Assembly (NCBI RefSeq): GCF_000003815.2
Contig: NC_049987.1
Span: 18,279,164-18,343,163 of the forward strand
Direction: 5' to 3'
From: Branchiostoma floridae
Lineage: Eukaryota; Chordata; Leptocardii; Amphioxiformes; Branchiostomatidae
DNA length: 64,000 nt
Position numbers and translations under genes: made by a program. How positions within the stretch are numbered: position 1 is the stretch's first letter; every line of letters starts with the position of its first letter. The notes beneath the pieces were generated by a model. The model ran no database searches. It saw only the letters and a program-made list of their open reading frames with translations, and was not told where the DNA came from. Shown piece after piece: positions 9,882-59,650 of the stretch.

Positions 9882-10978
9882 ACGCAAGGTTACCAGTTTA
9901 CGTGCAGGACCAGTTTACGGTCAGTTATGGGCAGGTGCAGACTTCGAGGTGAATTGTGAAAAAGAAAATTCTCTTCAGTAGGCAAGGAGTACGTCTTTAG
10001 TATCTATGGACATATATCTTATTTATGATATATGTTTGCATCCAGCAAAGCAGCCGACTAAACGTTTGAAAAGCCTGACAACAATTTAAATTGACGCATG
10101 GGATCATAGAACACTGTTATAGATGGCCCGGTTTTAATCGTAATTCTCAATCGCTAACTTCGTCCCCTCTTTCTAAATCCTACAAACTCTATAACAATTG
10201 CAACATCGCCTGAAACCAAACCTGCAGTTCTTATCTCAAGAATCCATGGTGATTTTATGTATGTTATCCAAAGGAAGTCTTAAAAACTACATGAAAACAA
10301 GTGACTGTCGTCGCCGAGCCGGTAGTTTTCGAACGCCATGTTGCATCACGTGACTGTGCATTTCAAGCTTGTGCACTGGAGAGCAGGGCAAAATCGCTAA
10401 GGGGCGCTGTTTTAGCCAAACTCATGTGGGGAGGGCACGGCGCGACGGAGCCATATGTATACTGAACGCGTTTCAAGGCCAATAACTATCTATACAATCA
10501 ATAAAAACATATAAATGCGTCGCCGATGTCATGAGTACCATTGGGCAAGTTGTGGAACAGCATGGCGCTAGGGGTGGCGTTCTGTTGGGGCAAAGATGAC
10601 TTACCGGTAAGTTTAGCGGCGATGCAAAGTGCACGGCATGGCGTCGATGTAAACATTTATCCATCGTGTTATCTCAGTGGACTACTTGGGGAACTTTTTA
10701 TGGGAAATGATCAATTATATGGCCTTTAGAAAAATAACTCCAGAGAGAAACACCCAACTGACCGTAAACTGGTCACCCTGAAAGAATTCTTGGCTGCAGA
10801 CTTGTTTTTTAAAGAAGCTCGCACGGCGATAAATCCAACAGAAGAAATATGATGCCACACAAAAGTTGATGCAGACCGACTAAGATATCTTCCAAAAGGA
10901 GAGTTTTTCATTTCTGCCTGAGAGTTTTCCGTAAAACTGCGTTGTTAATATATCGACCGTAAACTGGTAACCTTGCGT
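9882..10978. mobile_element. TA-flanked DNA transposon nested in the LINE endonuclease
   Basis: The ends ACGCAAGGTTACCAGTTTACG (left) and its exact complement (right) form terminal inverted repeats of at least 21 bp, flanked by TA at 9880-9881 and 10979-10980. A second inverted pair, CCAGTTTACGGTCAGTT and AACTGACCGTAAACTGG, lies at about 9910 and 10760. Removing the insert plus one TA leaves the LINE frame continuous (..QGL then SER..). It is 1097 bp with no transposase domain, so non-autonomous; the TA target suggests a Tc1/mariner-type or similar mobiliser. Confidence 0.88.
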
Positions 10979-10992
10979 TAAGTGAAAGGATA

Positions 10993-13893
10993 ATGACATG
11001 GCGTATACCTCTACAGAACAACAGATACCTGACTCTGATAAGCACATACGCACCCACACTTGTTGCTAGTGATGCGGAAAAAGACTCATTCTACGAGGCC
11101 TTAAACACAGCCGTAAGAGCAGTTCCACATGCAGACAAACTGGCCATACTAGGGGACTTCAACGCCCGAGTTGGAAACAGCCATCACCTGTGGCAGAGAG
11201 TGATGGGAGTCCACGGCGTAGGCAAGTGTAACGACAACGGACTGTGCCTCCTCTCCTTCTGTGCTGAGCACGACCTCGTGATCACAAATACACTTTTTCA
11301 ACTGCGCACAATGCACAAGACCACATGGATGCATCCAAGGTCAAAAAGATGGCACATGCTGGACTATGTCCTAGTACGGCAACCTGACCGGAAAGACGTT
11401 AAAATCACACGAGTAATGAGAGGAGCACAAGGATGGACTGACCATAGAATGGTACGCACAAGACTTGAAATACACATCAAGAAACACGCACGTAAGAATG
11501 CACATGCTGGAAAACTTAACACCTGGGCCCTAGAAGACAGTGGCAAAAGAGAAGAACTACAAACGGCACTGGCCAGTCGTCTTACCCACGCACTGGAAGA
11601 CTTGCCTGCAGACACAGAGCTCCTGACCACTGCCTGGGAAGCAGTAGCCAGCACCCTCAACACCACTGCACGCCAAGTACTTGGCACCACCACTAAACGG
11701 AATAGAGACTGGTTTGACGAGCAGAGAGAGGACATACACACCCTCCTAAGGGAGCAACACTCCGCTCATGCCGCCGTCCTAAGGAGCCCATCACCAGCTA
11801 ACAGAGCCAGGCTTGCTGAAGTCCGGTCTCAAGCACAGCGAGAAATAAGGAAAATGAAAAACGAATGGTGGACCCGCCTCGCCACAGAAATACAGGGCTA
11901 CGCGGACAAGGGAAATCAGCAACAATTCTACTGTGCTCTGAAGGCTGCCTACGGGCCAAGGCGAGGTACAAACTTCCCAGTCCGAAGCGCAGATGGAACA
12001 ACCCTTATAACCGAGAAAGCTGCCATTCTGGCCCGATGGGCAGAACATTACAGACAACTCCTGAATAGACACACAGAAGTCGATGACAGTGTCCTGGACG
12101 ACGTCCCAAAGCTCCCAGTGCTGGAGAGTATCGATGATCCCCCAACACTTGAAGAGGTGAAGGCATCAGTGAACTCCCTCAAAAACAACAAGGCAGCAGG
12201 CCCTGATGAAGTTCCAGGTGAAATCCTGCGGCACGGTGGTGAGGCAGTTGCCCTCTGTCTGCACTTCTTCGTGGTGGCTTGCTGGAACTCAGGCTGTGTC
12301 CCTCAGCAATGGAAAGACGCAGACCTTGTCAGCATCTACAAGAAGAAGGGAGATAGGGCATCCTGTAGCAACAGTCGTGGCATCTCACTCCTGTCAAGCG
12401 CGGGCAAGGTGCTCTCTAGGATCATGCTCCTGAGACTCATCAAGGCAGTAGCGGAAGAGGTCCTCCCAGAAATCCAGTGCGGCTTCAGAAAGGACCGCAG
12501 CACTGTCGACATGATCTTCGTACTTAGACAAGTTCAGGAGAAATGCAGGGAACAACACCAGGATCTCTACATGGTCTTTATAGACCTAACCAAGGCCTTC
12601 GATACAGTAAACAGGCCGTTGCTGTGGGAGGTACTGGGGAGATTTGGTTGTCCCGACAGGTTCCTAAGGGTCCTTAAAGCACTGCAAGATGGAGCTAGAG
12701 TGAGAGTCATAGGCGGCGGGGGCAAGTCCGATCCCTTCGAAGTCTGCACAGGTGTTAGACAAGGATGCGTCATTGCCCCAGTGATCTTCAACTTATTCCT
12801 CGCTGCAGTGATGCTGGCAGCCAAGCAGCGAATAAAACCCGAGGACTGCCTCTCTCTCACATACCGGCTGGACGGCAACCTGTTCAACCTGCGCAGGCTG
12901 AAAGCTCACACGAGGGTCACACAAGAGGATATACTGGAGCTACAATATGCTGATGATGCTGCCGTTACTGGCTCAACAGCTGCAGGACTACAGAGAAACC
13001 TCAACACACTGGATGATACCTATACACGGGCTGGGCTTCTCATTAACTGTGGTAAGACGGAGGCCATGGACCTGGGACGGCCTGGTACAGAGCCTGCCGC
13101 GTTCTCCATCAAAGACACAGCACTGAAGAGTGTCCCAGCATTCACCTACTTAGGATCGGTGCTAAGTGTCACAGGCGACATCACGGATGAGGTGCAGAGA
13201 CGCATCGGGCTAGCCTCTTCATCCTTTGGGAGACTTGCATCCAGGGTATTTCTCAACAAGGACCTCACAATTAAAACCAAAGTGGCAGTTTACAAAGCTA
13301 TCTGTCTGTCTATCCTCTTGTACGCTAGCGAGGCCTGGACACCATACAGACGGCACATTCGCATGCTCGAGCAGTTCCACACGAGATGTCTGCAAAGAAT
13401 ACTTGGACTTAAGTGGTGGCACAAGGTCCCACATGCCGAGATTCGTCGCAGGGCTGACATCGAACCACTGGAAACACTGCTCCTCCAGAGGCAACTCAGG
13501 TGGGCCGGCCATGTCATACGCATGCCTGGCAATCGCCTACCTAGACACATGCTGTACGGGGAACTAACCAAGGGTAAACGAACAGTAGGGGGACAGCATA
13601 AACGCTTCAAGGACAACCTGAAAGCAAACCTCAAGAAGTGTGGCATACCTCCGCAGGGTCTCGAGACCTCTGCAGCTGACAGAAACAGATGGAGACAGGA
13701 GTGTGCTGCGGGAGCTGCAAGATTCACCGCCAGCTTCAACCAGCAGTACGAAGAAAGAAGACAGCGCCGGCACCTGCCAACTAGCAACACATCCACTTCC
13801 AGCATCCACATATGCGAAGAGTGCGGCAGGACGTGCAAATCCAGAATCGGACTTACCAGCCACCAAAGAACACATGCGGTCAACCGAACGTGA
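10993..13893 (+). CDS. LINE polyprotein: endonuclease C-half, reverse transcriptase, C2H2 finger
   Basis: One open frame of 966 codons. Residues 1-160 are the second half of an APE-type endonuclease: ISTYAP near 16-21, GDFNARVG at 54-61, DYVLV at 124-128 and TDHRMV at 149-154. The reverse transcriptase follows, with GFRKDRST, FIDLTKAFDTVNR from 529, GVRQGC from 587 and the catalytic YADD at 652-655. The C-terminal region has the RWAGHVIRMP-type conserved block and ends with a C2H2 finger (C941, C944, H957, H961; CEECGRTCKSRIGL). The enzyme nicks target DNA and copies its RNA there. The first ATG is internal to the endonuclease, so the true start is lost. The frame has no stop over 2.9 kb, suggesting recent activity. 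I place it in the jockey/CR1/RTE-wide assemblage but cannot name the clade. Confidence 0.93.
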   Translation: MTWRIPLQNNRYLTLISTYAPTLVASDAEKDSFYEALNTAVRAVPHADKLAILGDFNARVGNSHHLWQRVMGVHGVGKCNDNGLCLLSFCAEHDLVITNTLFQLRTMHKTTWMHPRSKRWHMLDYVLVRQPDRKDVKITRVMRGAQGWTDHRMVRTRLEIHIKKHARKNAHAGKLNTWALEDSGKREELQTALASRLTHALEDLPADTELLTTAWEAVASTLNTTARQVLGTTTKRNRDWFDEQREDIHTLLREQHSAHAAVLRSPSPANRARLAEVRSQAQREIRKMKNEWWTRLATEIQGYADKGNQQQFYCALKAAYGPRRGTNFPVRSADGTTLITEKAAILARWAEHYRQLLNRHTEVDDSVLDDVPKLPVLESIDDPPTLEEVKASVNSLKNNKAAGPDEVPGEILRHGGEAVALCLHFFVVACWNSGCVPQQWKDADLVSIYKKKGDRASCSNSRGISLLSSAGKVLSRIMLLRLIKAVAEEVLPEIQCGFRKDRSTVDMIFVLRQVQEKCREQHQDLYMVFIDLTKAFDTVNRPLLWEVLGRFGCPDRFLRVLKALQDGARVRVIGGGGKSDPFEVCTGVRQGCVIAPVIFNLFLAAVMLAAKQRIKPEDCLSLTYRLDGNLFNLRRLKAHTRVTQEDILELQYADDAAVTGSTAAGLQRNLNTLDDTYTRAGLLINCGKTEAMDLGRPGTEPAAFSIKDTALKSVPAFTYLGSVLSVTGDITDEVQRRIGLASSSFGRLASRVFLNKDLTIKTKVAVYKAICLSILLYASEAWTPYRRHIRMLEQFHTRCLQRILGLKWWHKVPHAEIRRRADIEPLETLLLQRQLRWAGHVIRMPGNRLPRHMLYGELTKGKRTVGGQHKRFKDNLKANLKKCGIPPQGLETSAADRNRWRQECAAGAARFTASFNQQYEERRQRRHLPTSNTSTSSIHICEECGRTCKSRIGLTSHQRTHAVNRT

Positions 13894-23571: not shown

Positions 23572-23794
23572 GTAAGTGGTTGTTATTGATCTGTAGTGCC
23601 ATATTACCGCCACACTAACTAAATCATAGGAACGAATCCGGTTTGGAAATGTGACGTTAGCCTTATCATATAACCTGGGAAAATAACGGGTATATATCAT
23701 AAAAATTGCAGTGACTATGTAGGTCCACCCATATATATCGCTAGTATCATTGCACAGTCCCTAAAATAAACGACCATTGTTTCCATGTTTTCAG

Positions 23795-24214
23795 AACGGT
23801 CCCGTTCTCGCACGACCTTTGATCACAGTCGATCGCAAACCTCCAACGATGGACGTTCAACAGATCAAGGAAAAATCCAGTTCCGCGATCCAATCCCGCT
23901 CGGAAGAACTCTGGGATCTGAGCCAAGAGATCTGGAAGAATCCCGAACTCGCCTTTAAGGAACATTACGCGCACAAAGTCTTGACAGACTTCTTGGAGAA
24001 ACAAGGGTTCCGTGTGGACAGACACTACAAGTTGGAGACGGCGTTCAGGGCGGTGTGTGGGGAGGAGGGAGGGGTGCACGTGTGTGTGATATGTGAGTAT
24101 GACGCCTTGCCTGGGATTGGACATGGCTGCGGACACAACTTGATCGCAGAAGTGGGCGTGGCGGCCGGGATCGCGATCAAAGAAGTGATCCAAGACTTTC
24201 CACAACCCGTTAAG
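23795..24214 (+). CDS. PM20D2: M20 dipeptidase (PM20D2-like), catalytic exon
   Basis: Acceptor CATGTTTTCAG, donor CCCGTTAAG|GTTGGT, 140 codons in phase 0. From the internal ATG at 23849 the peptide (MDVQQIKEKSSSAIQSRSEEL) leads into WDLSQEIWKNPELAFKE and then CEYDALPGIGHGCGHN followed by LIAEVGVAAGIAIKE. The last segment holds the metal-site motifs of M20 metallopeptidases (His of HGCGHN). Human PM20D2 is a cytosolic dipeptidase that removes mis-made beta-alanyl or GABA dipeptides with Lys, Orn or Arg during carnosine metabolism; that substrate choice is inferred here. The introns contain several small inverted-repeat elements. Confidence 0.85.
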
Positions 24215-24403
24215 GTTGGTGACATCCCATTTTTGTATAGTCTTGCAGCTAAAGGACCGTTACACTAAAGTTACCCATCTTTCAAAAGTGTCTTTGTTTC
24301 TTATTAACTGTTATACAAGTTTTGGCGATGCTGATTTCAGTCAAAAATTTTATCATAAAAAATTGAATTACACGTAACATAAGTTCTGTGATAAACTTGT
24401 GAG

Positions 24404-28856: not shown

Positions 28857-28859
28857 ATG

Positions 28860-29700
28860 TGTGTGGATGGTGTTCAGTACCAAGGACGGGTGTGTTTACT
28901 TGTGTGTGGATGGTGTTCAGCACGAGGGACAGATATGTTTACCTGTGCGTGGATGGTGTTCAACATAAGGGACAGGTGTGTTGACCTGTATGTGGATGGT
29001 GTTCAGTACCAGGAACAGGTATGTTTACCTGTGTGTGGATGGTGTTCAGCACGAGGGACAGGTGCATTTGCCTGTGTGTGGATGGTGTTCAGCACCAGGG
29101 ACGGGTGTGTTGCCTGTGTGTTGATGGTGCTCAGCACCAGGGTCAGGTGCGATTGCCTGTGTGTGGATGGTGTTCAGTACCAGGGACAGAAGTGTTCACC
29201 TGTGTTTGGATGGTGTTCAGCACCAGGGACAGATGTGTTCACCTGTGTGTGGATGGTGTTCAGTACCAGGGACAGATGGATGTTTTCACCTGTGTGTGAA
29301 TGGTGTTCAGCACCAGGGACAGATGTGTTTACCTGTGTGTGAATGGTGTTCAGCACCAGGGATAGATGTTTTCGTATGTCGATGGTGTTCAGCACCAGGG
29401 ACGGATGTGTTTACCTGTGTGTGGATGGTGTTCAGCACCAGGGACAGATGTTTTTACCTGTGTGTGGATGGTGTTCAGCACCCGGGACAGATGTGTTCAC
29501 CTGTGTGTGGATGGTGTTCAGCACCAGGGACAGATGTGTTTACCTGTGTGTGGATGGTGTTCAGCACCAGGGACAGATGTTTTCACCTGTGTGTGAATGG
29601 TGGTCAGCACCAATGACGAATGTAATTGTGTGCGGAAGCTTTTCAGTACCAAAAGCAGGTCTCTTCACCTTTGTGTGGATGGCGTTCAATGAGAAGGACA
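28860..29700. repeat. 43-bp minisatellite, about 20 units
   Basis: Tandem units of GTGTGTGGATGGTGTTCAGC followed by ACCAGGGACAGATGTGTTTACCT, mostly 43 bp apart (near 28911, 28954, 28997, 29040, 29083 and onward). The outer units, especially 29600-29800, are diverged. Since 43 is not a multiple of three, each plus frame cycles through three peptide repeats and stays open, so the Cys-rich frames here are not evidence of a gene. Confidence 0.95.
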
Positions 29701-46752: not shown

Positions 46753-47344
46753 AGGAGCAGGTAAACAAATTAGAAATACTACATTCTGCATATTGTAAAT
46801 TGTAGCTGATATATCTTTCATATAGACTAACCAATAGAATCTAAAGACTTTTTTTGAAGTTAATAATCTTGTCAATTTCTCAACAACAAAAAAGTCACAG
46901 TGCATACGTAACATAAGTACTAAATATTATAACCGTAACAAATTATATGACACATAATACTGACGGTCTAGTTTATATATGGGAGCTTACTTTAATCAAA
47001 ACAACGTTTATCTGCAGTGACATCTTCACGGCGATCATTATAAGGAAAACAAGAGTTCAATTTTAGAGACACAGCCACACTGTGCATTAATTGTGATGAT
47101 GATGTAAACGTTATAACTCACCTGTAAGGCTGGAACCGGGAGCGTTACGTTGACAGCCGTAATTGTACGCCGAGATTTTCTGGTTACCGCTGTGAATCTA
47201 CCTCGTGCCACCAAGCAACTATCAAAACTATGGCTCCTATCAGTATCAATTTGGTGTTATCATCACAGATGCTAGCTATAATCTTTTGAAATATAAACGA
47301 CCGTTGTACGCGTACTTGCTTTTACATCGCACATAGGCTATATC

Positions 47345-47480
47345 TAGCCTGGTATCCAGCCATATTGTAGCTCCCAAGTCTCACCTGCCATTTGCGGAGA
47401 GAACAGAAGAGACTCGGGACAGTGCTCGGGAGCTATAATACGGAGAGAACAGGAGCTATATACGGCTGGATACCGGGCTA
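47345..47480. repeat. Foldback element joined to the 223-bp repeat
   Basis: AGCCTGGTATCCAGCCATAT and GGGAGCTATAATACGG / TATACGGCTGGATACCGGGCT form inverted arms around AGAGAACAGAAGAGACTCGGG. Confidence 0.6.
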
Positions 47481-47686
47481 TCGCTACGAAAGGGCCGCCA
47501 TTTTGATCATGCTAATCAGCTGGTCTGCTCGACTCCCATCACGCATTGCGCGGCAGCCCCTTTTTAATCTACCACCGACAACTCTCGCTAATGACAGCGA
47601 TCTGGAACATTGGATCGTAATCTATACCCGACACTATCGCCTAATAATTTCCCATTTTTAACGACAAGAAACGCTAATGACAACAG
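47464..47686 (-). repeat. 223-bp dispersed repeat, copy 2
   Basis: Inverted partner of 30313-30535. The minus-strand LRR frame runs into it and uses its first bases as the last nine codons and stop. Confidence 0.85.
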
Positions 47687-48487
47687 TATCGGGTGCCGCA
47701 CTACACGTGACAGGCCACATGCGCACAGATTCCAGTCGTGTCATGTTGACAAACGCCTTTGCCAGTGAGGAGAGACTCAGCGCCAGCTCGTTTCCCGTCA
47801 GGTAAAGATTCTGTAGCTCCTGCAAGTGACCCAGCTTTTTGGCCATGGCTCTTCCACCAGCGTTTGTTATCGAGTTTTTGCCGATGTTTAAGGTCCTGAG
47901 TTCTTTCAGGTGAGGAAATTTATCTGATATCGCTTCCACTCCCTCATCTCCAATACTGTTACTTTGAATGATCAAACCTTTCAGTGCGTGTAGCAGGTGA
48001 AGCTGTTTGGCCATTAAAGCTGCTGCCTTTGCAGAAAGTCCACAGTGGGACAGATGAAGTGCATGTATTTCTCTCATGTATGGGAAAAGTTTGACCAGAG
48101 CCTCAACATCATTGTCAGAAAGAGCACGTGCCGACAACGATAGATATGACGTATATTTGACGTTTTGAAGAGGCTTTGTCATGTCTGGCAGCCCCTCCAA
48201 TGCGTCCAGCATAGCCGAGAAGAACTCTGCGTATGTGGAGAAGCCGTGTGACTCCATGTACTCACTTGAAGTTCCGTACTGTATGCAGAAGGCTACAGCA
48301 TCTGTCAATGTGTGCGGGAGCGCTTTTTCAAATCTCCAGTACCGACACACACAGGGCCAGAAGAGCCGGCTTTCCAGCAGGGACATCACAACATCATTGT
48401 AAGGATAGCGCTCTTCCAAACCCGTGGCGGCATCACTGTTCTGTTGGAAATACTCTCTGATGTAGACTGTCCACTCAGGCCACCAAT
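47658..48487 (-). CDS. Tyr-motif/TM/LRR protein gene, exon 5: LRR domain
   Basis: Acceptor TCACCCTTTCTTCAG, two starting bases completing an Asp codon, stop TAA at 47658-47660. It starts DWWPEWTVYIREYFQQ and has a helical segment (about residues 20-110 of the exon), then ribonuclease-inhibitor-type leucine-rich repeats of about 28 residues: IHALHLSHCGLSAKAAALMA, LKGLIIQSNSIGDEGVEAIS, LRTLNIGKNSITNAGGRAMA and LQNLYLTGNELALSLSSLAK. The helix-strand LRRs would bind a ligand. After RMWPVTCSAAPD the frame enters the 223-bp repeat and stops nine codons later, so the LRR domain looks shortened by that insertion, or the repeat has become the natural end. Confidence 0.75.
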
Positions 48488-48988
48488 CTGAAGAAAGGGT
48501 GATAAACAATAAGTTATTTTTAGTTTCTTTTTTCAGAGTTAAAATTAGCTATCAACTACCATAATTCCCACCGCTAGGTGTCACAGTATCAAACGTGACT
48601 AAGTTAGTATCCCCCTCAGTAGAACAAGTCAGCTTGAAAAACGAGGTTAATAAGACAAACGAACACAAATATTCATATTAGACTCATTTCCCATTCAGTT
48701 TTTCTCCTAAATTATGCTAATATTCAAAATATAAGATCAAATAATGAATATCATAAGTAGTGTTATGCACAGATACGATGTGGCAATTTAGAGTAACGTA
48801 GGGATGCAAAATAAAACCATAGTAATGCAAATTATTTGACAAACATGCAACATTTCTTTTTAAAAAAATGGTCGATTTGCTATTTACCATGCTTTCATAG
48901 GTTGCTAATTATGAACTACAGTCTTTTGTTTGCCTAATTGAACTCGTTTTTGATCTATCATGGCCACCGCGTGAGGACGGTGTATTAC
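48488..48988. other. Intron 4 of the LRR gene
   Basis: AT-rich; no element recognised. Confidence 0.6.
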
Positions 48989-49061
48989 CTGTTGTCTGGG
49001 AGGTAGCTGATGACGTCACAGACGATGTTGTGGAGGTGGTTGGACATGTTGTCTGGTCCAG
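48989..49061 (-). CDS. Tyr-motif/TM/LRR protein gene, exon 4: Thr/Ser stalk
   Basis: Acceptor TTTTTTTATACCAG, phase 0, donor ACAACAG|GTAATA leaving one base. The 24 codons (LDQTTCPTTSTTSSVTSSAT...) are almost all Thr and Ser, as in O-glycosylated stalks. That composition suggests the C-terminal side of the membrane helix is outside the cell. Confidence 0.7.
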
Positions 49062-49771
49062 CTGGTATAAAAAAAGATCACACAAGACAACTATTTTCAT
49101 TAGTGTATAACAATGCCACAACAATTCAAATGACCCTCCTTACTCCTACTTTCTTAGTAGACTATTCTTTATTTGTTTGTTTATTTGTTTCGCACTTTAA
49201 AAACAACAATAATAAATACATGATAATGAATTATAAAGCATGAACAGTACAGTGAATGTAAACGTCAATCTCTATTCAACTATATAGATATACAATACTT
49301 ATAAGAAACGGGCATGAACATGCAATAAAAAGTATTATTATAATTAGTAGTAGTGGTAATGATACCACTTTTTTAATTGTATTTGATTATATACTTTTGG
49401 CCATTTAAAACATTTATGTGTGACCTACACAAGATTCGTAAACACCATCCTGCTTTTTGAGGTTTCAGCGAACCTAGCGTATCAAAAGTACCTTTAGATT
49501 AATACTACTAGAAGACGGATACTCCAAACAACAAAGCTGCATCTGCTGGAGCCGCCTCACACGTTGCATACAGTTGCCCCTGTGAGACTTAGTGCTCCAG
49601 TAGACGAGAGGGTGGAGAAGGAATTGCACATCCCTCTTTCACCATAAAAAGTCATGTGCAGGTCAGGCAAACAGGCAAACAGCCTGTCTGCCCCCTCATC
49701 TGTCCAATCGACAGGAGAAACTAGTGTGTTCTATGGCTTGCAATAAACCACCGGTTGATGAGAGAACTTAC
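49062..49771. other. Intron 3 of the LRR gene
   Basis: Contains AT-rich sequence and, near 49590, the dispersed CAGTAGACGAGAGGG string also seen near 37283. Confidence 0.5.
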
Positions 49772-49953
49772 CGCCATGTTGTCGTTGTTGTGGAATCCCA
49801 GTCTGCTGTGTTGGCTGAAGATTACACCCACCACTGTTGCAGCAGTCACGGCAATGACGACACCAACACAGACAGCCAACACGCGCCCTGGAAGGGACCG
49901 GCAGAACTCACGGCAGTTCTGACTGCACCTCGGGTCGTCATCTTCAGCACCTA
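49772..49953 (-). CDS. Tyr-motif/TM/LRR protein gene, exon 3: transmembrane helix
   Basis: Acceptor TTTATCAACAG, two starting bases completing Val, donor ATGGCG|GTAAGT in phase 0. It encodes an acidic start (GAEDDDPRC), a Cys/Arg-rich juxtamembrane segment (CSQNCREFCRSLPGR) and one helix, VLAVCVGVVIAVTAATVVGV. Arginines sit on the N-terminal side of the helix, so the positive-inside rule predicts a type II protein with the N-terminus in the cytosol. The cysteines may be palmitoylated. Confidence 0.75.
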
Positions 49954-50034
49954 CTGTTGATAAACAAACGAGATGCTAAGCATAAAAGTTCACCTGTGTT
50001 GGTAAATGACTGTATGGATAAAGTAGACTCTTAC

Positions 50035-50381
50035 TGACCAACAATAGATTGATTGGGACTTAGCCTAAATTTTTGGCCAACTCCGCAGCCTTGCTCACGT
50101 AATGGACCCGTCTGACTGTGACTGTAGCTTCCGGTAAGTGACGTCGTAGGCACATGACTGCAGCAGAGGGTCGTAAATGCCGTGTACATCCGCGCCCACC
50201 GTCCATCGCTAAACAGAGACGGAGGGCGACACAGGCTATCTGGCATTTATGACCTTCTGCTGCAGTCACGTGTCTCCGACGTCACATTCCGAAAGCTACA
50301 GTAGACGGGTCCATTCCGTGAACAAGGCTGACGGAGTCGGCCGAAAATTTGGGGTAAGTCACAATCAATTTTAGTGTTGGT
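50035..50381. repeat. 350-bp foldback element in the LRR gene intron
   Basis: Left arm CCAACTCCGCAGCCTTG, GGACCCGTCT and GACTGCAGCAGA.GGTC is mirrored by the right arm GACC.TCTGCTGCAGTC, AGACGGGTCC and CAAGGCTGACGGAGTCGG; outer ends ACCAACA and TGTTGGT. Confidence 0.8.
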
Positions 50382-50894
50382 TAGTACGAGATGCTGCATA
50401 TGAGAAGAAAATTATATACAAATGTATTTGATACTCGTTTCCATCTATTTCCGCTTTCTACACCAATGGAAATTTAGAAACGTTATATATGATGATGATT
50501 TTAGAATTCTCTTACAAATTATAATAATATCTTTATAATCCTTTTGCTTGTAAAATTGCTTAACCTATCAATAGTCATATTACAGCTAGTATTTAAGCTA
50601 GCAGAGACTGGATCAAAATGTACGTCATTTCGGTTTTTGATTCCTGGCTACACTGGGCAAGATGTGTCCGTGTGAAATACACTTTCTTACTGCGGTTTGG
50701 GAGATGTACACAGACCAAAAGACATGGTACCGATTTCTAAAACAAGGTCAAAGACAAACAGCACATATCTCCCCTCGCTAAAATCTATTTTAGCATCCCG
50801 CTGTAAGCAAAATAAATCTTTATTCTTCGGTACAAAGAAAGAGTGAAAAGGAAAAAGGAAACATACGCGTGGTCTCTGATAGTACACTACTCAC

Positions 50895-52097
50895 CCCTTT
50901 TGTCACCCCTGGCTCGGTGTCTCATGCAAACCGCATCTTGTGCTGCCACAAACTCAGCATCCAAATCCGCATACACGTTATCTGATGTTGGCTGGCCAAG
51001 TTGGTTGTCGTCCATTTTGTAGAAAGGCTGTTGTTCGTTTTTCCCATCAGCTGATGCGACGTCCATCTCGTAAAATGGCTCATCTTGTTTGTCTTTGCCT
51101 TTGGCCGCGGTGACGTCCATCTTGTAAAATGGCTGTTCTTGTTCGTCTTTGCCTTTGGCAGCGGTGACGTCCATCTTGTAGAATGGCTGTTCTTGCTCTT
51201 CATCCGCAGGGGAGATGTCCATCTCATAGAATGGCTCAGCTGAGGCATTTTGAATCGCATCTTGTATTGCCAGAAATTCTTGGTCTAAATCAGCATAGAC
51301 GTGCATAGATAAGTTGGAATGTTCTTCATCGTTCTCGTAATGCCTAGCAGTGTGTTCTTCATCGTTCTCGTAATGCCTGGCAGTGTGTTCTTCATCGTTC
51401 TCGTAATGCCTGGCAGTGTGTTCTTCATCGTTCTCGTAATGCCTGACAGTGTGTTCTTCATCGTTCTCGTTATGTCCGTGATTTTTATCGTACTGGAAAT
51501 ATTTGTGTTCTTTATCGTTCTCGTAGTGTCCGTGATTTTTATCGTACTGGAAATATTTGTGTTCTTCATCGTTCTCGTAATGTCCGTGATTTTTATCGTA
51601 CTGGAAATATTTGTGTTCTTCATCGTTCTCGTAATGTCCGTGATTTTTATCGTACTGGAAATATTTGTATTCTTCATCGTTCTCGCAATGTCTATCGTTG
51701 TCGTAATGCCTGGCAATGTGTTCTTCATCGTTCTTATAATGTCTATCGTTCTTGTCATGCCTGGCAGTGTGTACTTCATCGTTCTTGTAATGTCTATCGT
51801 TGTCGTAATGTCTGGCAGTGTGTTCTTCATCGTTCTCGTAATGTCCGATTTTTCGATCACTCTCTTCGTTTTCAGCGTTCTGGAATTTTAACTCCTCGCC
51901 ATATTCTCTAACAGGCTTCAAAATTGCTTCTGGGTTTTCTCTTGCACGCAGTGCCTGTCTCTGCCAGTCGAGGATCCGCTTGGTAGACCAGAACCTCTGT
52001 CCCACCCGCCTGACGTAGAGCGGGTCCCGCGGGCGGCAGGGCACATCGGCCGGCTGAGGTTGTGACTCCTTCGGTCGAACCACAGCAGGTGGAGACA
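50895..52097 (-). CDS. Tyr-motif/TM/LRR protein gene, exon 2: Tyr-rich repeats and VYADLD motifs
   Basis: Acceptor CTTTATTTCTGTTCAG, two starting bases, donor AAAAGGG|GTGAGT leaving one base; 401 codons. Order: a Pro/Arg-rich start (RPKESQPQPADVPCRPRDPL...), then tandem 11-residue HYENDEEHTAR units mixed with 18-residue HYENDEEHKYFQYDKNHG units, then VYADLDQEF, five EPFYEMD/QPFYKMD units of about 17 residues, and a second VYADLDAEF..AQDAV. By the exon 3 topology this region is cytosolic. The repeated Tyr in acidic context and the V-Y-A-D-L strings look like phosphorylation and SH2-binding sites, loosely ITIM-like (V.YxxL lacks the usual -2 residue). I recognise no named family. Confidence 0.75.
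51316..51850. repeat. Coding minisatellite in exon 2 (33-bp and 54-bp units)
   Basis: Tandem TCTTCATCGTTCTCGTAATG-containing units, 33 bp apart or 54 bp when TTTTTATCGTACTGGAAATA is inserted. All unit lengths are multiples of three, so copy-number change preserves the frame. Confidence 0.95.
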
Positions 52098-53026
52098 CTG
52101 AACAGAAATAAAGAAGAAGAGAAGAATTGGAGACATGTACACAAAAATGATCTAATTCGCACTCCCCAATTTAGAATACAGTACCAAAATCATAGCTTTG
52201 AGTTTATGTGTGGGAAAATATAAATGGGTATTGAATGAAGTTCTTTGTAACATGACCAGACTGGTTATTCTGCTTCCAACCACTAGGTGGCTCTGCTGGA
52301 ACAACAATGGGGAAAATGCGGTCCCAAATATGACTGATAAGGTGGCATGACACAATATTTCGCCTAAGGGGATTTAAGTGCTTAAGGACCCCAAAGTTAA
52401 AAGGTTCAACGCCTCAAAATCTTAAGCAGGGTGCACAAGCAATTGACAAGAATTTAATATGATGAAGTGAAAGGTAGAATCTACAAAATATCTGAAAATG
52501 AGGTAAAGTTTGTATGCTCGTTCTGCTGTAAAAGAAACTTTGATTTGACCCCCAGTGGAGGTCACTATACCGCAGCCGACACAGCACGAAAGTAGTCGGG
52601 AACAGGATTCATTCGCGAAATTCTACCCAACGGAACAAACATCATAATTCATTTGAATGGCTCTATCGTGCCCGAACTCGTTTTGACCTCGGGGGTCGCC
52701 CATAAAAACTGTGTTATGCGACCATAACAAGCAGTTTGGGGGGGGGGGGTCAACTAATTCACATTTTAGAGACTGCTTTCCTCACACTGCAATGGGAAAT
52801 AGATTCAGACACTATGCCAAGGAAGGTAACAAGGGCTACTAAAATATTGACAATTAAATCATGTGAAAAATGTAGGGATACACGTGAAATATCAACAGAT
52901 ACTTATCATGCAAATAAGAGACTAATTGACATAATCAATTAAGAAAGGGCCTTAATTTCAACGTGGGAAATGGTGAGGTTCCCCACTTATACTTGTGATA
53001 TACATTTGCATAATTTATGGTAGGAT
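52098..53026. other. Intron 1 of the LRR gene, 3' part
   Basis: No exon recognised. A G-run lies at about 52738-52749. Confidence 0.4.
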
Positions 53027-54000
53027 TTAACCCTCAAACACCCGAGTGGGTTTCATTTGGACCCCAGGCGTAAATTTTGAAGTACCATTTGAACATTTTT
53101 AATCTGAAGAAAAATTCCTTCTGTGACTTTGTCAGCCACTATCTTCTATACCTTCACCTAAGTTTTTATGAAAATTGGTACAATACTGCGGAAGCTATAA
53201 AGAAAGTTCGTGATCAGTCCGTCTGAGGTCCAAACGGACCCCAGCAAAAAAGTGCAGCTTTTGAAACAAACTTTTGAGTCTAACTCTCTGACTAATTATC
53301 GTATCACCACCAAACTTACAGAGGATATTAAACATGTCAAATTAAATTATCATTAAAACTTCTGTGTCATCACCATATAATATAACGATATTATGACGTC
53401 ATTTAGCTAATAAGGGCGGCCATCTTGGATTTTGACTAATGACGCCATGAAATTAGCATAGATTATAAATTTTGAATCATGAAAATAACATTGAATTTCA
53501 TAGAATTTTATTGTTGTAAGAAAACAAGCATTGGTTACCAAGAAAACCTTGTTTAAATCAAAATTGGCAAATTTTGGCAAAAATATGCCTGTCATAATTC
53601 AGTTACCATGGCAACCAAAAAAATAATTATTTTATTGACAAATGAATTTTGCTAACAATATTTTGTGATATATTACCGTGTTTCGTAGCTTTAGCACTAG
53701 TCGTTCATGAGTTATGCGACATAAAGGTTGCTGAGGACCTCAAAATTCCCCTCTCTGGTCAGAATAGGTTTAGTGCAAAAGATGGTCCTGCTGATCTTTT
53801 GCATAAATTATGATAATGAGGTAAAATTAGCAACACCTTAACATGTCAAAATATTCCTCTTACATTGACGAAGTAATGTATGTACAATGATCCCCGATAG
53901 GAATTGGAAATGAGATTCTATTAACAAAACATTTTGGGGTCCGTTTCGTCCCCACTCGGTCATTTTAGTCGCAAAAAAAGGTCGGGTGCTTGAGGGTTAA
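53027..54000. mobile_element. piggyBac-like non-autonomous element
   Basis: TTAA on both sides (53027-53030, 53997-54000), ends CCCTCAAACACCCGAG and CGGGTGCTTGAGGG (inverted, about 14 of 16 alike). TTAA target and CCC-starting termini fit piggyBac. The interior has GGACCCCAG and CCAAACGGACC repeats and no transposase. Confidence 0.75.
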
Positions 54001-55007
54001 ACATGAAATTTTGCCAAACGAGAAGACGCCGCCAGTACAATATATGTATTTTTGGTTCAGAAAACCTTTATGAATAAAACAAATTATGCGAATAACAGAC
54101 GTATAAGTTGCATAATCAATTAAACAAGATAAAGCTATGAATCTCTGAATGGGGTATGAGGTCTCCGTACTCTCGTTTTAGTTGTGCTGCAAAAAACATT
54201 ATTGCCCAAATCTGAATATTGTTTACACGTTTACTAAAAATTGATAGTTACATTGACATGTTTGGAGAATTGGTTTAACTACACAAAAATTAAAATGGGT
54301 CACATCAAAAAAGCTTTTTAAGTTCTTGTATTCGGGTAAATAATGTTCATCATCATAGGCACAAAGTTATTCGCATATTACATACATATTTAACGAATAA
54401 TTTCCGAATATGTGGTACATGACATTATGTTAGTCAATTCGTTACGTCGGGATTTTCCGGCAAATTCGTCGAGATGCTACGTCGTTGCGAATCGGGAATA
54501 CTCGTTTGTGTTCGGAAAACGAACAAAATGGCCGACAGCAGCACTGGCGACGTCGGTGATAAATATGCGGAATTGCAGCATGTTTGTGAGATGCAATGAC
54601 GTCACATTATTAGTCTAGTATCAGTATGCCTATGCAATGAGACAGATCTATAGTGTTAACCGATGCGGAAATTAAGGTAACGCGGAGACACTGTGAACTG
54701 AAATTCGAAATTTGTGCAAACTTAACTTGAGCTATCAGAAAAGTGAAGGAACACTGTCTCAAGTAGTAACTGCTGCCATTAACCAAAAATTAAAGAGAAA
54801 TTTTGAAACATTAGTGAAAAGGCGTGCATTTTTCTCTTGTTGTTTTGTTGTACATGACATCGAAGTCAAACCCATAAGTTTAAATGGTACCTATTACATG
54901 TACCTGTATTCATACGCATATTCTTACAAATCCGCATAATCTATCCTGTATTCTGTACTTTAATTGGGTTCTGAGGAGTAATGTCCACCGGCTGTTGAAT
55001 AAACAAC
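54001..55007. other. Intron 1 of the LRR gene, middle part
   Basis: AT-rich, no feature recognised. Confidence 0.4.
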
Positions 55008-55009
55008 TA

Positions 55010-55587
55010 CGAGGGGCATTCAATAAGTAATGTCCCTGACCCATTTCCCATAGCAGGAGATTAATGAAACTTGGCACAGTTATTAGTCTTTCTCTTCATA
55101 GGAACCACCCAGAGTTATGCATTTCTCCCATCATTTGATGTAGCTCTGGACACCGTTCTTGTAGGACATCCCAGGTTGGTCCTCCGACAGATGCCTCATC
55201 AATGGCAGAAGAGGGACGACCAGGTCTGGGAGCTGTTTCCACAGACTTCCGGCCTTGTTTGAATTCAGGATGCCAGCGTTTTACAAGGTCATATGATGGG
55301 GAATCATCACCATAAGTTTTTTTCATTTCATCTAAAGTCCCTTTTGGTGTGCGTCCTTTCAAATACAAAAACCGGATCACTGCGCGACACTAAACTTGCT
55401 CCATTTCACACCTGGTCCATTTCGCACCTGACTCAGTTCAAACACCAGTAAATCAGTAACCATAATTAGTTCAGAGCTGTATTTTGCAACATAACCCATA
55501 GAGATATGACTCATTACACATGCAACATTTCATCTAGATCAGACAACTGGCAGTGGGTCATGGGCATTACTTATTGAATGCCCCTCG
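55010..55587 (-). mobile_element. Internally deleted mariner-type element, copy 1
   Basis: Ends CGAGGGGCATTCAATAAGTA and the complement at the right, flanked by TA (55008-55009, 55588-55589). On the minus strand a short frame is the transposase N-terminal helix-turn-helix region (CRAVIRFLYLKGRTP ... DLVKRWHPEFKQGRKSVE) and the mariner GRPSSA linker motif; the catalytic DD(D/E) domain is absent. A TAG occurs at codon 5. It sits in intron 1 of the LRR gene. Confidence 0.88.
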
Positions 55588-56093
55588 TATAATGGCGACA
55601 GGTTGTATATTACAAAAATAGTGGCAACAAATCCCCGTGTATTGGAAACGATAAATGGTTTGAGCAAAAATTTATTATACATTTTACAATATAAGGCCAC
55701 ACCAATTTTATTTGTTGCTTCTCTGATTCGCCTGTCAATTTGTTTTTCATTTTCAAATGAAGTCCTGAGAATGAAAAATGATACAGGTTTTGCTATCATA
55801 AACCTGTAAATATTGCCATTCACTGGTTTGGAGCCACACACACACAATTTCAGTCTAAAAACACTGCCTTTTATTCAGAACATTAGTAACAAATCAAAGG
55901 AATGGTTCATTGTATAAAATGTGCGATTAAAACACCTCAGCTTGTTGTTTTTTGTGTTATTTAGCAGTATATCTTCACCCCAGACATTTTGAATCTTTTT
56001 CGACCTGTTGGTCCAATTTTTTCGGAAAAAAGTCCGAGAAGCAAGAAATAAACTTGGTATGCCTCTAATGTTGATACAATAATGTCACCGTAC
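55588..56093. other. Intron 1 of the LRR gene, 5' part
   Basis: No coding feature beyond the donor at 56092-56093. A short (AC)n run lies near 55838. Confidence 0.5.
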
Positions 56094-56454
56094 CTGCTGT
56101 CTTCTTCCTATTGTCATGAAGTCTGTCCAACTCGTTGTCTCCACAGGACGGACCCGCCTGTACCTGCACCCGCCTTGTACTCCTCACTTTCTCCTTCTGT
56201 AGGACTGGCGGTTTCTTCTCCACTTTTACCGCTGGATTTCTGGTGGTTTCTCCGTCTCTAGGTTTAAACTTCACTTTTCGAACCTCCATATTGATATTTT
56301 CGGCCATGTACATGTGTTGTCTCTGCTGTGGAAGGTTTCTATGTATCGCCGCTTCCCCTAAATACTTCCTCTCTTCACTAACGCTCTGTAACGCCCAGAT
56401 CTGACGGAAATTACTACGTCGCAAGGCTAGATGATATTTTGGTGCGGTTACCAT
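56094..56454 (-). CDS. Tyr-motif/TM/LRR protein gene, exon 1
   Basis: ATG at 56454, 120 codons plus one base, donor GCAG|GTACGG. The leftover base completes Val with the two bases opening exon 2. The peptide (MVTAPKYHLALRRSNFRQIW ... HMYMAENINMEVRKVKFKPR ... VEKKPPVLQKEKVRSTRRVQ) is basic, without a signal peptide, in line with a cytosolic N-terminus. The join to exon 2 over a 4-kb intron rests on phase and strand only. Confidence 0.6.
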
Positions 56455-56866
56455 GGAAAGGAAATTCCCAAATTACGTCAAATCGGCATGAATCGTACGT
56501 GATTGGATGGATTCGGTCCTTGAGACTCTAATAGGTCTGCTTGTTGAATTTTTGTGGGAGGGAACTGGACATTTTGTTTCCTAAATACTAGCTTATGAAT
56601 TGTTCTTGACTCTTGTTCTAAGTGTTTCGAAAAACAAAACAAAACTTTGTGTGACCGTTCGGTCGTGTTTACCAAATTTTCATTGCACATAAAGAAAGTC
56701 AAACGTTAACAGTTCAAAATACTGCATATATTTCCGCTCCGATGTTTTTTTAACGAAGTCTTTCCGGCTTCTTTCTTTTCTGACGTCCGCCATATTGAAT
56801 TTCTCAAGATCAGCAACGAAAACAACTACTTTTATTGTAAAATCTTTCGTGGACATTAATTAATTG

Positions 56867-57371
56867 TTAGTCTTTCTCTTCATAGGAAGCACCCAGAGTT
56901 ATGCATTTCTCCCATCATTTGATACAGCTCTGGACACCGTTTTTGTAGGACACCCCAGGTTAGTCCTCCAACAGATGCCTCATCAATGGCAGAAGAGGGA
57001 CGACCGAGTCTGGGAGCTGTTTCCACAGACTTCCGACCATGTTTGAATTCAGGATGCCAGCGTTTTACAAGGTCATATGATGGGGCATCATCACCATAAG
57101 TTTCATTTATTTCATCAAAAGTCTTCTTTGGTGTGCGTCCTTTCAAATACAAAAACCGGATCACTGCGCGACACTCAACTGGCTCCATTTCACACCTGGT
57201 CCATTTCACACCTGACTCAGTTCAAACACCAGTAAATCAGAAACCACAATTAGTTCAGAACTGCTTTTTGCAACATAACCCAAGAAGATATGAATCATTA
57301 CACATACAACATTTCATCTAGATGAAACAACTGGAAGTGGGTCAGGGGCATTTCTTATTGCACGCCCCTCG
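56867..57371 (-). mobile_element. Internally deleted mariner-type element, copy 2 (left end missing)
   Basis: About 90% like copy 1 by eye from its internal TTAGTCTTTCTCTTCATAGG to the right terminus GCCCCTCG. The left terminus is lost. The transposase start (MEPVECRAVIRFLYLKG on the minus strand near 57189) and GRPSSA motif are intact. The same internal deletion junction as copy 1 is present. Confidence 0.85.
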
Positions 57372-58445
57372 TACTAAGGTGACACTGACCTAATTTTATG
57401 GAAGAAATCCTCTGGAGACCCCATTTTTTTTTGCGTGACAGTGAAAAAAAAGGATTCAAGCAAAAATGCTGCTAAACCACGGGGCTAAACATCAAGTCCA
57501 TTCTTTCCCAGGCTTGGTTTGTCTTCCATATGTTAACCTGCAGTTAGACTGTAAGGCACAATCGTCGACATTTCAATAATGTCTTTATTGCAATTCTTGT
57601 TTCTACGTTATCTACTTTACCAAAGACATTTCTTGATCCATTGGATAATCCGTTAGACGTTTCAATGTATTACATTACATAGGAGACCAGTATCACATTA
57701 CATAGGAGACCAGTATCATATTACATGGGTTTTATGCTTGTGGTTGTGTGTATGTGACTTGGGGTAAAACTGTTCAATTATAACAAAGAGCAACAGTTTC
57801 ACATATAGACCTTGCATGAGGACGGGTGAACGATTGTCATTGCGGTCACCCTAACCGCCTATTCTAGACTTGCAGAAGCCATTTTCATGAAAAATATGAA
57901 ATATCATATTGATGAGACATTGCAGGGTGAAGACTTTTAGATTTGGTGAAAAAAGGTTTTGGTTTATTTTTTAGGCCTGTGCAGACGCCTAAACCAAAGT
58001 GGTTAGTCCCTAAATTGACGTCATCAGAAACCAAGATGGTGGCATTTTTTAAATTTGAAAATGGACACTTGAGATAGCGGGCTACTGTGTGGAGGGAGTT
58101 GTTATGACTTGGAATGTTCACGGATGAGATTATGACACCCTGAACTAGCATATTGTTACATTATCGCCTATACAGCTTGCCATTCGTGTTCTGTGCCCTA
58201 CATAAGGTATATCGGTATGTTGGCGGCGTCGTTGCGGCCAAGCAATTTTACAGAGCACTCAACAGATTTTATCGATATAGATAAAGAAAACGAATATTTT
58301 TACTCTTTGTTTTGATGCAAACTTGTACGTATTGTATGCCTATTATAGCGTCAAGGGTAACGCAAATAAATTTAGACCGCCGCTACGCCTCCAACTTACC
58401 ACAGTCCGGTGAGATACCTCTGAAGAATACACATTTCCGGTCGCT
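57372..58445. other. Spacer downstream of the GPCR gene
   Basis: No gene recognised. ACATAGGAGACCAGTATCA is tandemly repeated near 57680-57720. Should include the GPCR 3' UTR. Confidence 0.4.
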
Positions 58446-59606
58446 TCAATGTACATCCACGCTGGCGTTTCCGCAACACTTCACGAAGAGCCGTGCAACC
58501 CCTTGTCGAACCTCTCTCAGACGAAACCCGTAGATCAGCGGGTTGATTGCTGAGTTGAAGATGACGAAGACCAGCATTTCGGAGAGTCCAAGATGGTCTT
58601 CAGTCATCGTGGCCAGCCTGATAGAAATTGGCAGCCACCCGACCAGGAAAACGACGGTGATGATGACGATGGTGAAGGCGGATTTCCTGTTGACGCTTGA
58701 CTGGGAAGCCACCGTCGCTTCTTGTGCAGCAATGGCGTTCATGTGCTTCCAGAGGCACCAAAATACCCCCAGGTTGAAGTAGACGATTGCCGCCATCGGG
58801 ATGAAGATGAACACCAAGACGAGTATCCCGTAGTTGTCCGGCAATCCACCGCCCGTTGGTAGGCAGTCTCCCGATGTTTCTGAATGCCTGCAGTGCCAGC
58901 CGAAGTTGGGCAGCATCGCCAGCAATCCAGACAAAACCCAAACGGTCACGATCACGACCTTGCACTTCTCGTTGGTGACGTTGTTGACGTAGGTCATCCC
59001 GTGCACGATGAACCAGTAGCGCTCAGCCGTTAGCGCCAGGAGGCTGTAGGCAGAGGACAACCCGGAGAGGAATATTGCCGTCCATCGGAGCCTAGACGCG
59101 ACAATGACTGTCCCAGCATCTGTAGTATTCGACAGTAATACCGAACTACTGGCATATACGAAGGCTGCGCCGGTCAAGACGTCGCTTGATGCCAGGTTAG
59201 CCACGACGATGTACACGGGCTTGTGGAGTCGTTCATGCCTGATGATGGCGGCAAGTGGGAGGCTATTAGCTACGACTGACCAAACACCAAGACATAAACC
59301 AACGAACACGAACTGTTTAAAGCGGCGTTTTCTGTCTGACGATGGACAAAGAGCCTCAATCTGCTTGCATCCATTGGCATTTGAAGTGTTGTTTTCTGGT
59401 ATATAGGAACCGTTGGCACCCGCTAATGTGCTCCTGTGCTCAGACCGACCGTTCTGCAGCGTGGAGTTGGAGGATTCGCTCGCTTTGTCACTGTCGGCTC
59501 CGGTAGCCACGGTCCTCCCAACGGAGTGAATTGTGGCCATGAGAACAATGCACAACGCCCAGATGTAGATGCCTCGCTCTTTACAAATCACCATTGTTCT
59601 GTACAT
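58446..59606 (-). CDS. Intronless class A GPCR, LPA/S1P/cannabinoid-like
   Basis: 386 codons, ATG 59606 to TGA. Hydrophobic segment at about 13-30 may be a signal peptide; the N-terminal tail has N-glycosylation sites (NSTL 47, NGSY 65, NNTS 72). Seven helices at about 99-121, 130-152, 168-192, 216-236, 259-283, 309-331 and 340-360. Class A marks: NLASSD in TM2, ERY (195-197) for DRY, GWLP in TM6 where CWLP is usual, NPLIY (355-359), then CC (377-378) as palmitoylation site. The TM3 cysteine is missing, while the second extracellular loop has its own pair (GWHCRH...GDCLP). That is typical of the lysophospholipid/cannabinoid/melanocortin group. Ligand unknown. Confidence 0.9.
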   Translation of the reverse strand: MYRTMVICKERGIYIWALCIVLMATIHSVGRTVATGADSDKASESSNSTLQNGRSEHRSTLAGANGSYIPENNTSNANGCKQIEALCPSSDRKRRFKQFVFVGLCLGVWSVVANSLPLAAIIRHERLHKPVYIVVANLASSDVLTGAAFVYASSSVLLSNTTDAGTVIVASRLRWTAIFLSGLSSAYSLLALTAERYWFIVHGMTYVNNVTNEKCKVVIVTVWVLSGLLAMLPNFGWHCRHSETSGDCLPTGGGLPDNYGILVLVFIFIPMAAIVYFNLGVFWCLWKHMNAIAAQEATVASQSSVNRKSAFTIVIITVVFLVGWLPISIRLATMTEDHLGLSEMLVFVIFNSAINPLIYGFRLREVRQGVARLFVKCCGNASVDVH

Positions 59607-59650
59607 GTGCGCTTACTTAGACAGATATTCATTTGCGTGTTGGTTTAGCA

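Follow-up and report, generated by a model that had tools for sequence, protein, structure and literature searches.

A candidate type II receptor gene of Branchiostoma floridae joining a tyrosine-motif tail to ribonuclease inhibitor-like leucine-rich repeats

Does a minus-strand locus of Branchiostoma floridae encode a single membrane protein in which a tyrosine-rich tail and a domain of leucine-rich repeats (LRRs) lie on opposite sides of one helix? A sequence-only reading of the window (the whole 64,000-nucleotide stretch analysed, from contig NC_049987.1) had proposed such a protein. We consider that there are even chances that the gene encodes a single-pass type II tyrosine-docking receptor, with the LRRs outside and the tyrosine tail inside the cell.

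Five exons on the minus strand join in frame into 882 codons including the stop (Table 1), and the resulting protein has 881 residues, close to the 880 or so that had been predicted. The intron phases across the four joins are 1+2, 1+2, 0+0 and 1+2. All minus-strand GT and AG dinucleotides within 47000-57000 were ranked with a generic weight matrix of textbook frequencies. The donors of exons 1-4 took ranks 6, 3, 4 and 15 among 588 GT sites and the acceptors of exons 2-5 ranks 5, 47, 18 and 2 among 584 AG sites, thus bearing out the earlier claim of good splice sites with matching phases. For exon 3, the sequence offers another acceptor 3 bases upstream (49954, rank 36) that is likewise in frame. 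Exon 4 codes for only 24 residues, and leaving it out leads to a premature stop. Codon usage does not favour the frame of the gene model in exon 1 (forward frames 6.8, 14.8 and 14.6) and does not support it over codons 1-72 of exon 2 (16.3, 20.5 and 16.3, with one antisense frame at 27.0). For this reason the start codon at 56454 is uncertain, and translation may in fact begin downstream of it, for example at Met56 (56289).

Table 1. Features of the candidate receptor gene, in positions of the window
Feature	Position	Strand	Basis
Exon 1, basic N-terminal segment	56094..56454	-	Open frame; donor rank 6/588; codon usage not favouring the frame
Exon 2, putative cytosolic tail with 12 YxND, 2 VYADLD and 5 PFYxMD	50895..52097	-	Open frame; motif counts
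HYxND repeat array, residues 206-379	51322..51843	-	Tyr kept in 12/15 copies
First VYADLD, residues 387-392	51283..51300	-	Motif scan
Stretch with 5 PFYxMD, starting at residues 409, 425, 443, 461 and 478	51010..51234	-	Motif scan
Second VYADLD, residues 495-500	50959..50976	-	Motif scan
Exon 3, Cys530, Cys534 and Cys538, then hydrophobic helix 545-566	49772..49950	-	Hydropathy; Cys positions; donor rank 4/588
Exon 4, larger part of the Thr/Ser-rich stalk	48989..49061	-	Ser/Thr content; exon needed for frame
Exon 5 part 1, helical region of about 100 residues before the LRRs	48159..48487	-	AlphaFold2
Exon 5 part 2, 4 clear RI-like LRRs; stop codon 47660-47658	47658..48158	-	Pfam, PDB sequence match, repeat spacing
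Possible ATTAAA polyadenylation signal, about 90 bases past the stop	47563..47568	-	Sequence

The protein has one hydrophobic helix, with a best 19-residue hydropathy mean of 2.69; no window whose start lies ahead of residue 520 or beyond residue 570 exceeds 1.2, in agreement with the single transmembrane helix proposed before. No hydrophobic segment was found at the N-terminus (best window starting in residues 1-60, -0.02). The 25-residue flanks of the helix contain six Lys and Arg residues on the N side vs one on the C side, and Ser or Thr occupies 16 of the 22 residues at 585-606, as expected from the basic flank and stalk that had been read as N-in. Three juxtamembrane cysteines on the N side form a CxxxCxxxC pattern. 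The charge bias and the missing N-terminal segment agree with a type II internal signal anchor, so that the 544 residues before the helix would be cytosolic and the 315 after it extracellular. There is only one N-glycosylation sequon after the helix (shuffle mean 2.47), and there are two in the tail (shuffle mean 2.01).

The LRR class predicted for exon 5 could be confirmed. Pfam LRR_6 matches above its family cut-off (E 6.8e-9), and the best PDB sequence match is ribonuclease inhibitor (E 6.1e-18). Four clear repeats start at 746, 774, 802 and 830, probably with one more ahead of them. Their spacing of exactly 28 residues, together with LRR_6, places them in the RI-like class, whose consensus is 28-29 residues long (LxxLxLxx(N/C)xLxxxgoxxLxxoL; PMC2946307, PMC4598782) and which is the class of the cytosolic NLRs (PMC4598782). 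Fold matches to the LRR part were weak, the top one being the NLRP1 LRR domain (E 6.8e-3). The 110-residue stretch preceding the repeats, modelled alone with AlphaFold2, gave a best model with mean pLDDT 73.0 and pTM 0.69 (five models, 73.0-40.1), and a fold search with it returned no clear match. Exon 5 matched six Pfam families at E up to 1, none of them an LRRNT or LRRCT cap. A NACHT domain was found neither in exons 1, 2, 3 and 5 at the same threshold nor in the 110 pre-LRR residues at E up to 10.

The two VYADLD motifs and the tyrosine-acidic repeats described ahead of the helix are indeed present in exon 2, part of which consists of tandem repeats of 33, 51 and 54 bases. VYADLD did not occur in any of 2000 shuffles of the tail, and its two copies differ by four silent and no replacement changes. 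Among the PFYxMD copies (four adjacent comparisons) differences are mostly silent (pS 0.54, pN 0.048), whereas the six codons that follow look neutral (pS and pN both 0.40). The YxND array is a different case: serial comparison of its copies gave 5 silent and 39 replacement changes (pS 0.146, pN 0.150), which indicates no constraint, and three of 15 copies have lost the tyrosine. The tail contains 12 YxN (shuffle mean 2.17, maximum 8), a count inflated by tandem amplification. The Grb2 SH2 domain requires Asn at +2 and is less strict at +1 and +3, with a preference for a hydrophobic residue at +3 (PMC3694890). All 12 YxND sites have this Asn, with E (8), D (2) or K (2) at +1, but all carry Asp at +3. 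YxxL/I occurs twice, near the shuffle mean of 1.79, and the tail has no match to the classic ITIM [SIVL]xYxx[ILV] or to an ITAM (paired YxxL/I 6-12 residues apart). The suggestion of working tyrosine motifs is thus independently supported for PFYxMD and VYADLD, by their silent excess, but not for the YxND array.

In the type II receptor, helix 545-566 would act as signal anchor, and the outer part would run from the Thr/Ser stalk through the helical region to some five RI-like LRRs. If the LRR domain binds a ligand or drives clustering, a Src-family kinase could phosphorylate the tail, and the phosphorylated PFY[EK]MD, VYADL and YxND sites might then dock SH2 proteins, the YxND sites favouring adaptors of the Grb2/Gads type. 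Receptor and scaffold roles would thereby be combined in one molecule, which may function in the manner of LAT-type adaptors though it does not itself belong to them. Several findings speak against this receptor: the unconstrained array with its Asp at +3, an LRR class of cytosolic NLRs without caps, the single outer sequon, the missing ITIM and ITAM patterns and the unsupported frame of exon 1.

The same type II receptor might instead be mainly inhibitory, with the two VYADL as ITIM-like sites that dock phosphatases of the SHP/SHIP type and the YxND array as a neutral spacer. We consider this unlikely, though not negligibly so. It would fit the purely silent VYADLD differences and the unconstrained array, and the amphioxus receptor BbLcLRR is reported to have ITIM-like sites such as HDYSEV, to associate with SHIP1 and less so with SHP1/2, and to break the classic rule at -2 as well (PMC8211107). 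However, the tail lacks the classic pattern altogether. Moreover, PFYxMD shows silent excess too, and we know of no phosphatase motif that it fits. It seems less probable still that two genes were merged, so that exons 1-3 or 1-4 would encode a tyrosine-repeat protein and exon 5 would be an LRR gene of its own or a piece of an NLR. The linkage of exons 3, 4 and 5 is a prediction from the sequence, RI-like LRRs are typical of NLRs (PMC4598782), and NLRs are reported to be expanded in amphioxus, with 118 genes in B. floridae (PMC4852459). Against a split stand the exon 5 acceptor and exon 4 donor (2/584 and 15/588), the matching phases, a frame that needs exon 4, and a scan of exons 1-3 and 5 in which NACHT was not matched.

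A reversed or internal topology, with a lumenal, perhaps sulphated acidic tail and cytosolic LRRs, is improbable. Tyrosines in an acidic context would suit sulphation, and the tail has two sequons vs one after the helix. NLRs with the same LRR class are cytosolic (PMC4598782). But no N-terminal hydrophobic segment is present to export a tail of 544 residues, the tail sequons only equal their shuffle mean, and the Lys and Arg bias and the cysteines lie on the N side, with the stalk on the C side. Similarly, we find it hard to believe that the gene is decaying or was never expressed and that its open frame arose mostly as a side effect of tandem repeats. These repeats do keep several exon 2 frames open on both strands, codon usage over the whole exon separates the coding frame (83.5) little from one antisense frame (79.7), and the array shows no constraint. 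Against this stand the five open exons joining in frame and, in PFYxMD, a silent excess specific to the motif, with neutral neighbouring codons.

If the type II receptor is real, an RI-like LRR domain, of the class found in cytosolic NLRs, would have moved to the cell exterior, and the gene would be a candidate immune-type signalling receptor. It may be undescribed. In a search mainly of openly accessible literature, no title or abstract opening among the matches listed mentioned RI-like LRRs in a type II protein. A study of amphioxus slp76 reported slp76, GADS and Itk but did not find any LAT-like molecule, and among other options it raised that of an unknown recruiter bound to the membrane (PMC5431462). 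The protein predicted here, which would combine many tyrosine motifs and an LRR domain at the membrane, is a concrete candidate for that recruiter. That it fills this role as a one-piece receptor-adaptor, an extracellular NLR-type LRR sensor joined to a LAT-like multivalent tyrosine scaffold, is a speculative proposal with a small chance of being correct.

LAT, LAB/NTAL and LAX likewise have one helix and a long cytosolic region with many tyrosine sites, including Grb2-binding YXN, and LAT and NTAL/LAB also have juxtamembrane cytosolic cysteines (PMC3291652, PMC2803307). The amphioxus protein has the single helix and a long multi-tyrosine region, presumably on the cytosolic side. It lacks the short outer part of these transmembrane adaptors (PMC2803307), having 315 residues after the helix, and has CxxxCxxxC in place of the CXXC reported for four of seven members. 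Its predicted orientation is N-in, unlike theirs, and the likeness described here is one of features. Among amphioxus membrane LRR proteins, BbLcLRR is tyrosine-phosphorylated via Lck in Jurkat cells made to express it (PMC8211107), and FrLRR coimmunoprecipitates with Grb2 (PMC10199209). As described there, BbLcLRR carries typical LRRs with LRRNT/LRRCT caps and a WSC domain, all before the helix, and FrLRR has a folate-receptor domain, Slit2-type LRRs and a C-terminal predicted helix or GPI site; in our protein, the helix precedes RI-like LRRs with no cap matched. NLRs and ribonuclease inhibitor share RI-like LRRs of 28-29 residues, but NLRs are soluble and cytosolic (PMC4598782), whereas in the candidate protein the LRRs follow a membrane helix and NACHT was not matched in exons 1-3 and 5. 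The hybrid "shortcut" genes of amphioxus are described as joining caspase, TIR and other domains rather than a tyrosine tail; as in the candidate gene, a receptor part is fused to a downstream signalling part, for example in TNFR-caspase (PMC2575513).

Five minus-strand exons, put forward by the sequence-only reading as a candidate type II receptor, were all found and join in frame to encode a product of 881 residues. The observation was confirmed; the interpretation is supported in part only, with new internal evidence suggesting that two tyrosine motifs are under constraint. Scored with a generic weight matrix of textbook frequencies, the splice sites come out strong: in the minus-strand interval from 47000 to 57000, the donors rank 6, 3, 4 and 15 among 588 GT and the acceptors 5, 47, 18 and 2 among 584 AG. 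The weakest acceptor precedes exon 3, where an alternative at 49954 ranks 36 and adds one residue in frame. The two acceptors (49951-49954, minus strand) lie 3 bases apart, each in frame. Exon 4 (73 bases) looks like a true linker, since skipping it leads to a stop shortly past the junction. By coding-potential score, the gene's frame is the best overall in exon 2 (83.5; one antisense frame reaches 79.7). Neither in exon 1 nor across the first 72 codons of exon 2 is the gene's frame favoured over other frames, and the start codon is therefore uncertain.

In the predicted cytosolic tail, 30 Tyr fall within residues 122-544, and the net charge over residues 200-500 is -50 when Asp+Glu are subtracted from Lys+Arg. 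We counted the two VYADLD motifs claimed before, and the Tyr-acidic repeats proved to include 12 YxND; there are also five PFYxMD. Constraint was assessed by comparing repeat copies within the tail with each other, which needs no orthologues. Four adjacent comparisons of PFYxMD gave 5 silent and 3 replacement differences (pS 0.54, pN 0.048), all three replacements being E/K at the variable position; the six codons that follow gave 8 and 21 (pS 0.40, pN 0.40). The VYADLD copies differ by 4 silent and no replacement changes; across 17 codons the counts are 5.5 and 7.5. Constraint was not seen in the serial comparison of the HYxND array (5 silent, 39 replacement; pS 0.146, pN 0.150), a comparison that partly mixes repeat types; eight like-with-like pairs of units differ little (silent changes per pair 0 to 1, replacements 0 to 6). 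Because of these comparisons, PFYxMD and VYADLD are the best-supported candidate working motifs; YxND is the most numerous motif, yet is not among them.

Residues 545-566 form the sole strongly hydrophobic stretch of the product, in agreement with the single helix proposed earlier, and no hydrophobic segment was found near the N-terminus of the predicted protein. An orientation with the N-terminus inside and the LRRs outside had also been proposed. The 25-residue flanks (6 Lys+Arg before the helix, 1 after), Cys530, Cys534 and Cys538 directly ahead of it and the 22-residue stretch behind it (16 Ser or Thr) agree with this predicted topology, but the single N-glycosylation sequon after the helix, below the shuffle mean of 2.47, does not help.

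Exon 5 opens with about 100 residues that, folded alone from a single sequence, form seven helices in AlphaFold2 (best model mean pLDDT 73.0, pTM 0.69; other four models 67.7 to 40.1) and have no clear match among solved structures. The LRRs start at 746, 774, 802 and 830, and the RI-type assignment holds: the spacing is a constant 28 residues, Pfam LRR_6 matches (E 6.8e-9) and the best PDB sequence match is ribonuclease inhibitor. LRRNT or LRRCT caps had no Pfam match in exon 5. The RI-like class is described as that used by NLRs, and the typical class as that of TLRs (PMC4598782).

The product may well work like a TRAP-type transmembrane adaptor. TRAPs are described as single-helix proteins in which little lies outside the cell and a long cytosolic region bears the Tyr, with a juxtamembrane CXXC in four of seven (PMC2803307). 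LAT is reported to have three YXNX sites, and the Grb2-binding motifs of LAX to hold 5 of its 10 Tyr (PMC3291652). The Grb2 SH2 domain is said to require Asn at +2 and prefer a hydrophobic +3, with +1 and +3 less stringent (PMC3694890); Asn stands at +2 in 12/12 YxND sites and a hydrophobic residue at +3 in 0/12. We do not class the product as a TRAP, since it departs from their description in both the short ectodomain and the CXXC. A less likely alternative is an inhibitory role via the VYADL sites, which we keep because the amphioxus receptor BbLcLRR is reported to use ITIM-like sites that likewise deviate from the classic rule (PMC8211107). As to the adaptor reading, the amphioxus slp76 study reports that a LAT-like molecule was not found, and raises two possibilities: LAT's work may fall to an unknown molecule bound to the membrane, or no such molecule exists (PMC5431462). 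Amphioxus hybrid genes are described in which receptors are fused directly to downstream parts (PMC2575513). Taken together, these reports would make the five-exon gene a reasonable candidate, not more.

Neighbouring features in the window
Feature	Position	Strand	Remark
LINE-like element, 976-codon open frame	10963-13890	+	reverse transcriptase, Pfam RVT_1 E 5.3e-33
Open stretch	23768-24265	+	matches Xaa-Arg dipeptidase, PDB 8xzc, E 9.7e-29
Minisatellite, 43-base unit, 17.6 copies	28858-29612		underlies long + strand open frames
Mariner-type element, two similar copies	55000-55600, 56880-57400	-	mean column identity 87%
Rhodopsin-type GPCR open frame	58446-59609	-	Pfam 7tm_1 E 1.7e-31

In the LINE-like element, endonuclease and C-terminal C2H2 zinc-finger matches fall slightly under their cut-offs, and the dipeptidase-like stretch matched nothing in Pfam at E 0.01. 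One mariner-type copy lies within intron 1 and the other upstream of exon 1; the latter, the sole copy scanned, matches Mos1 HTH_48 (E 1.4e-10). The GPCR frame shares the strand of the five-exon gene and lies upstream of it, roughly 2 kb from exon 1.
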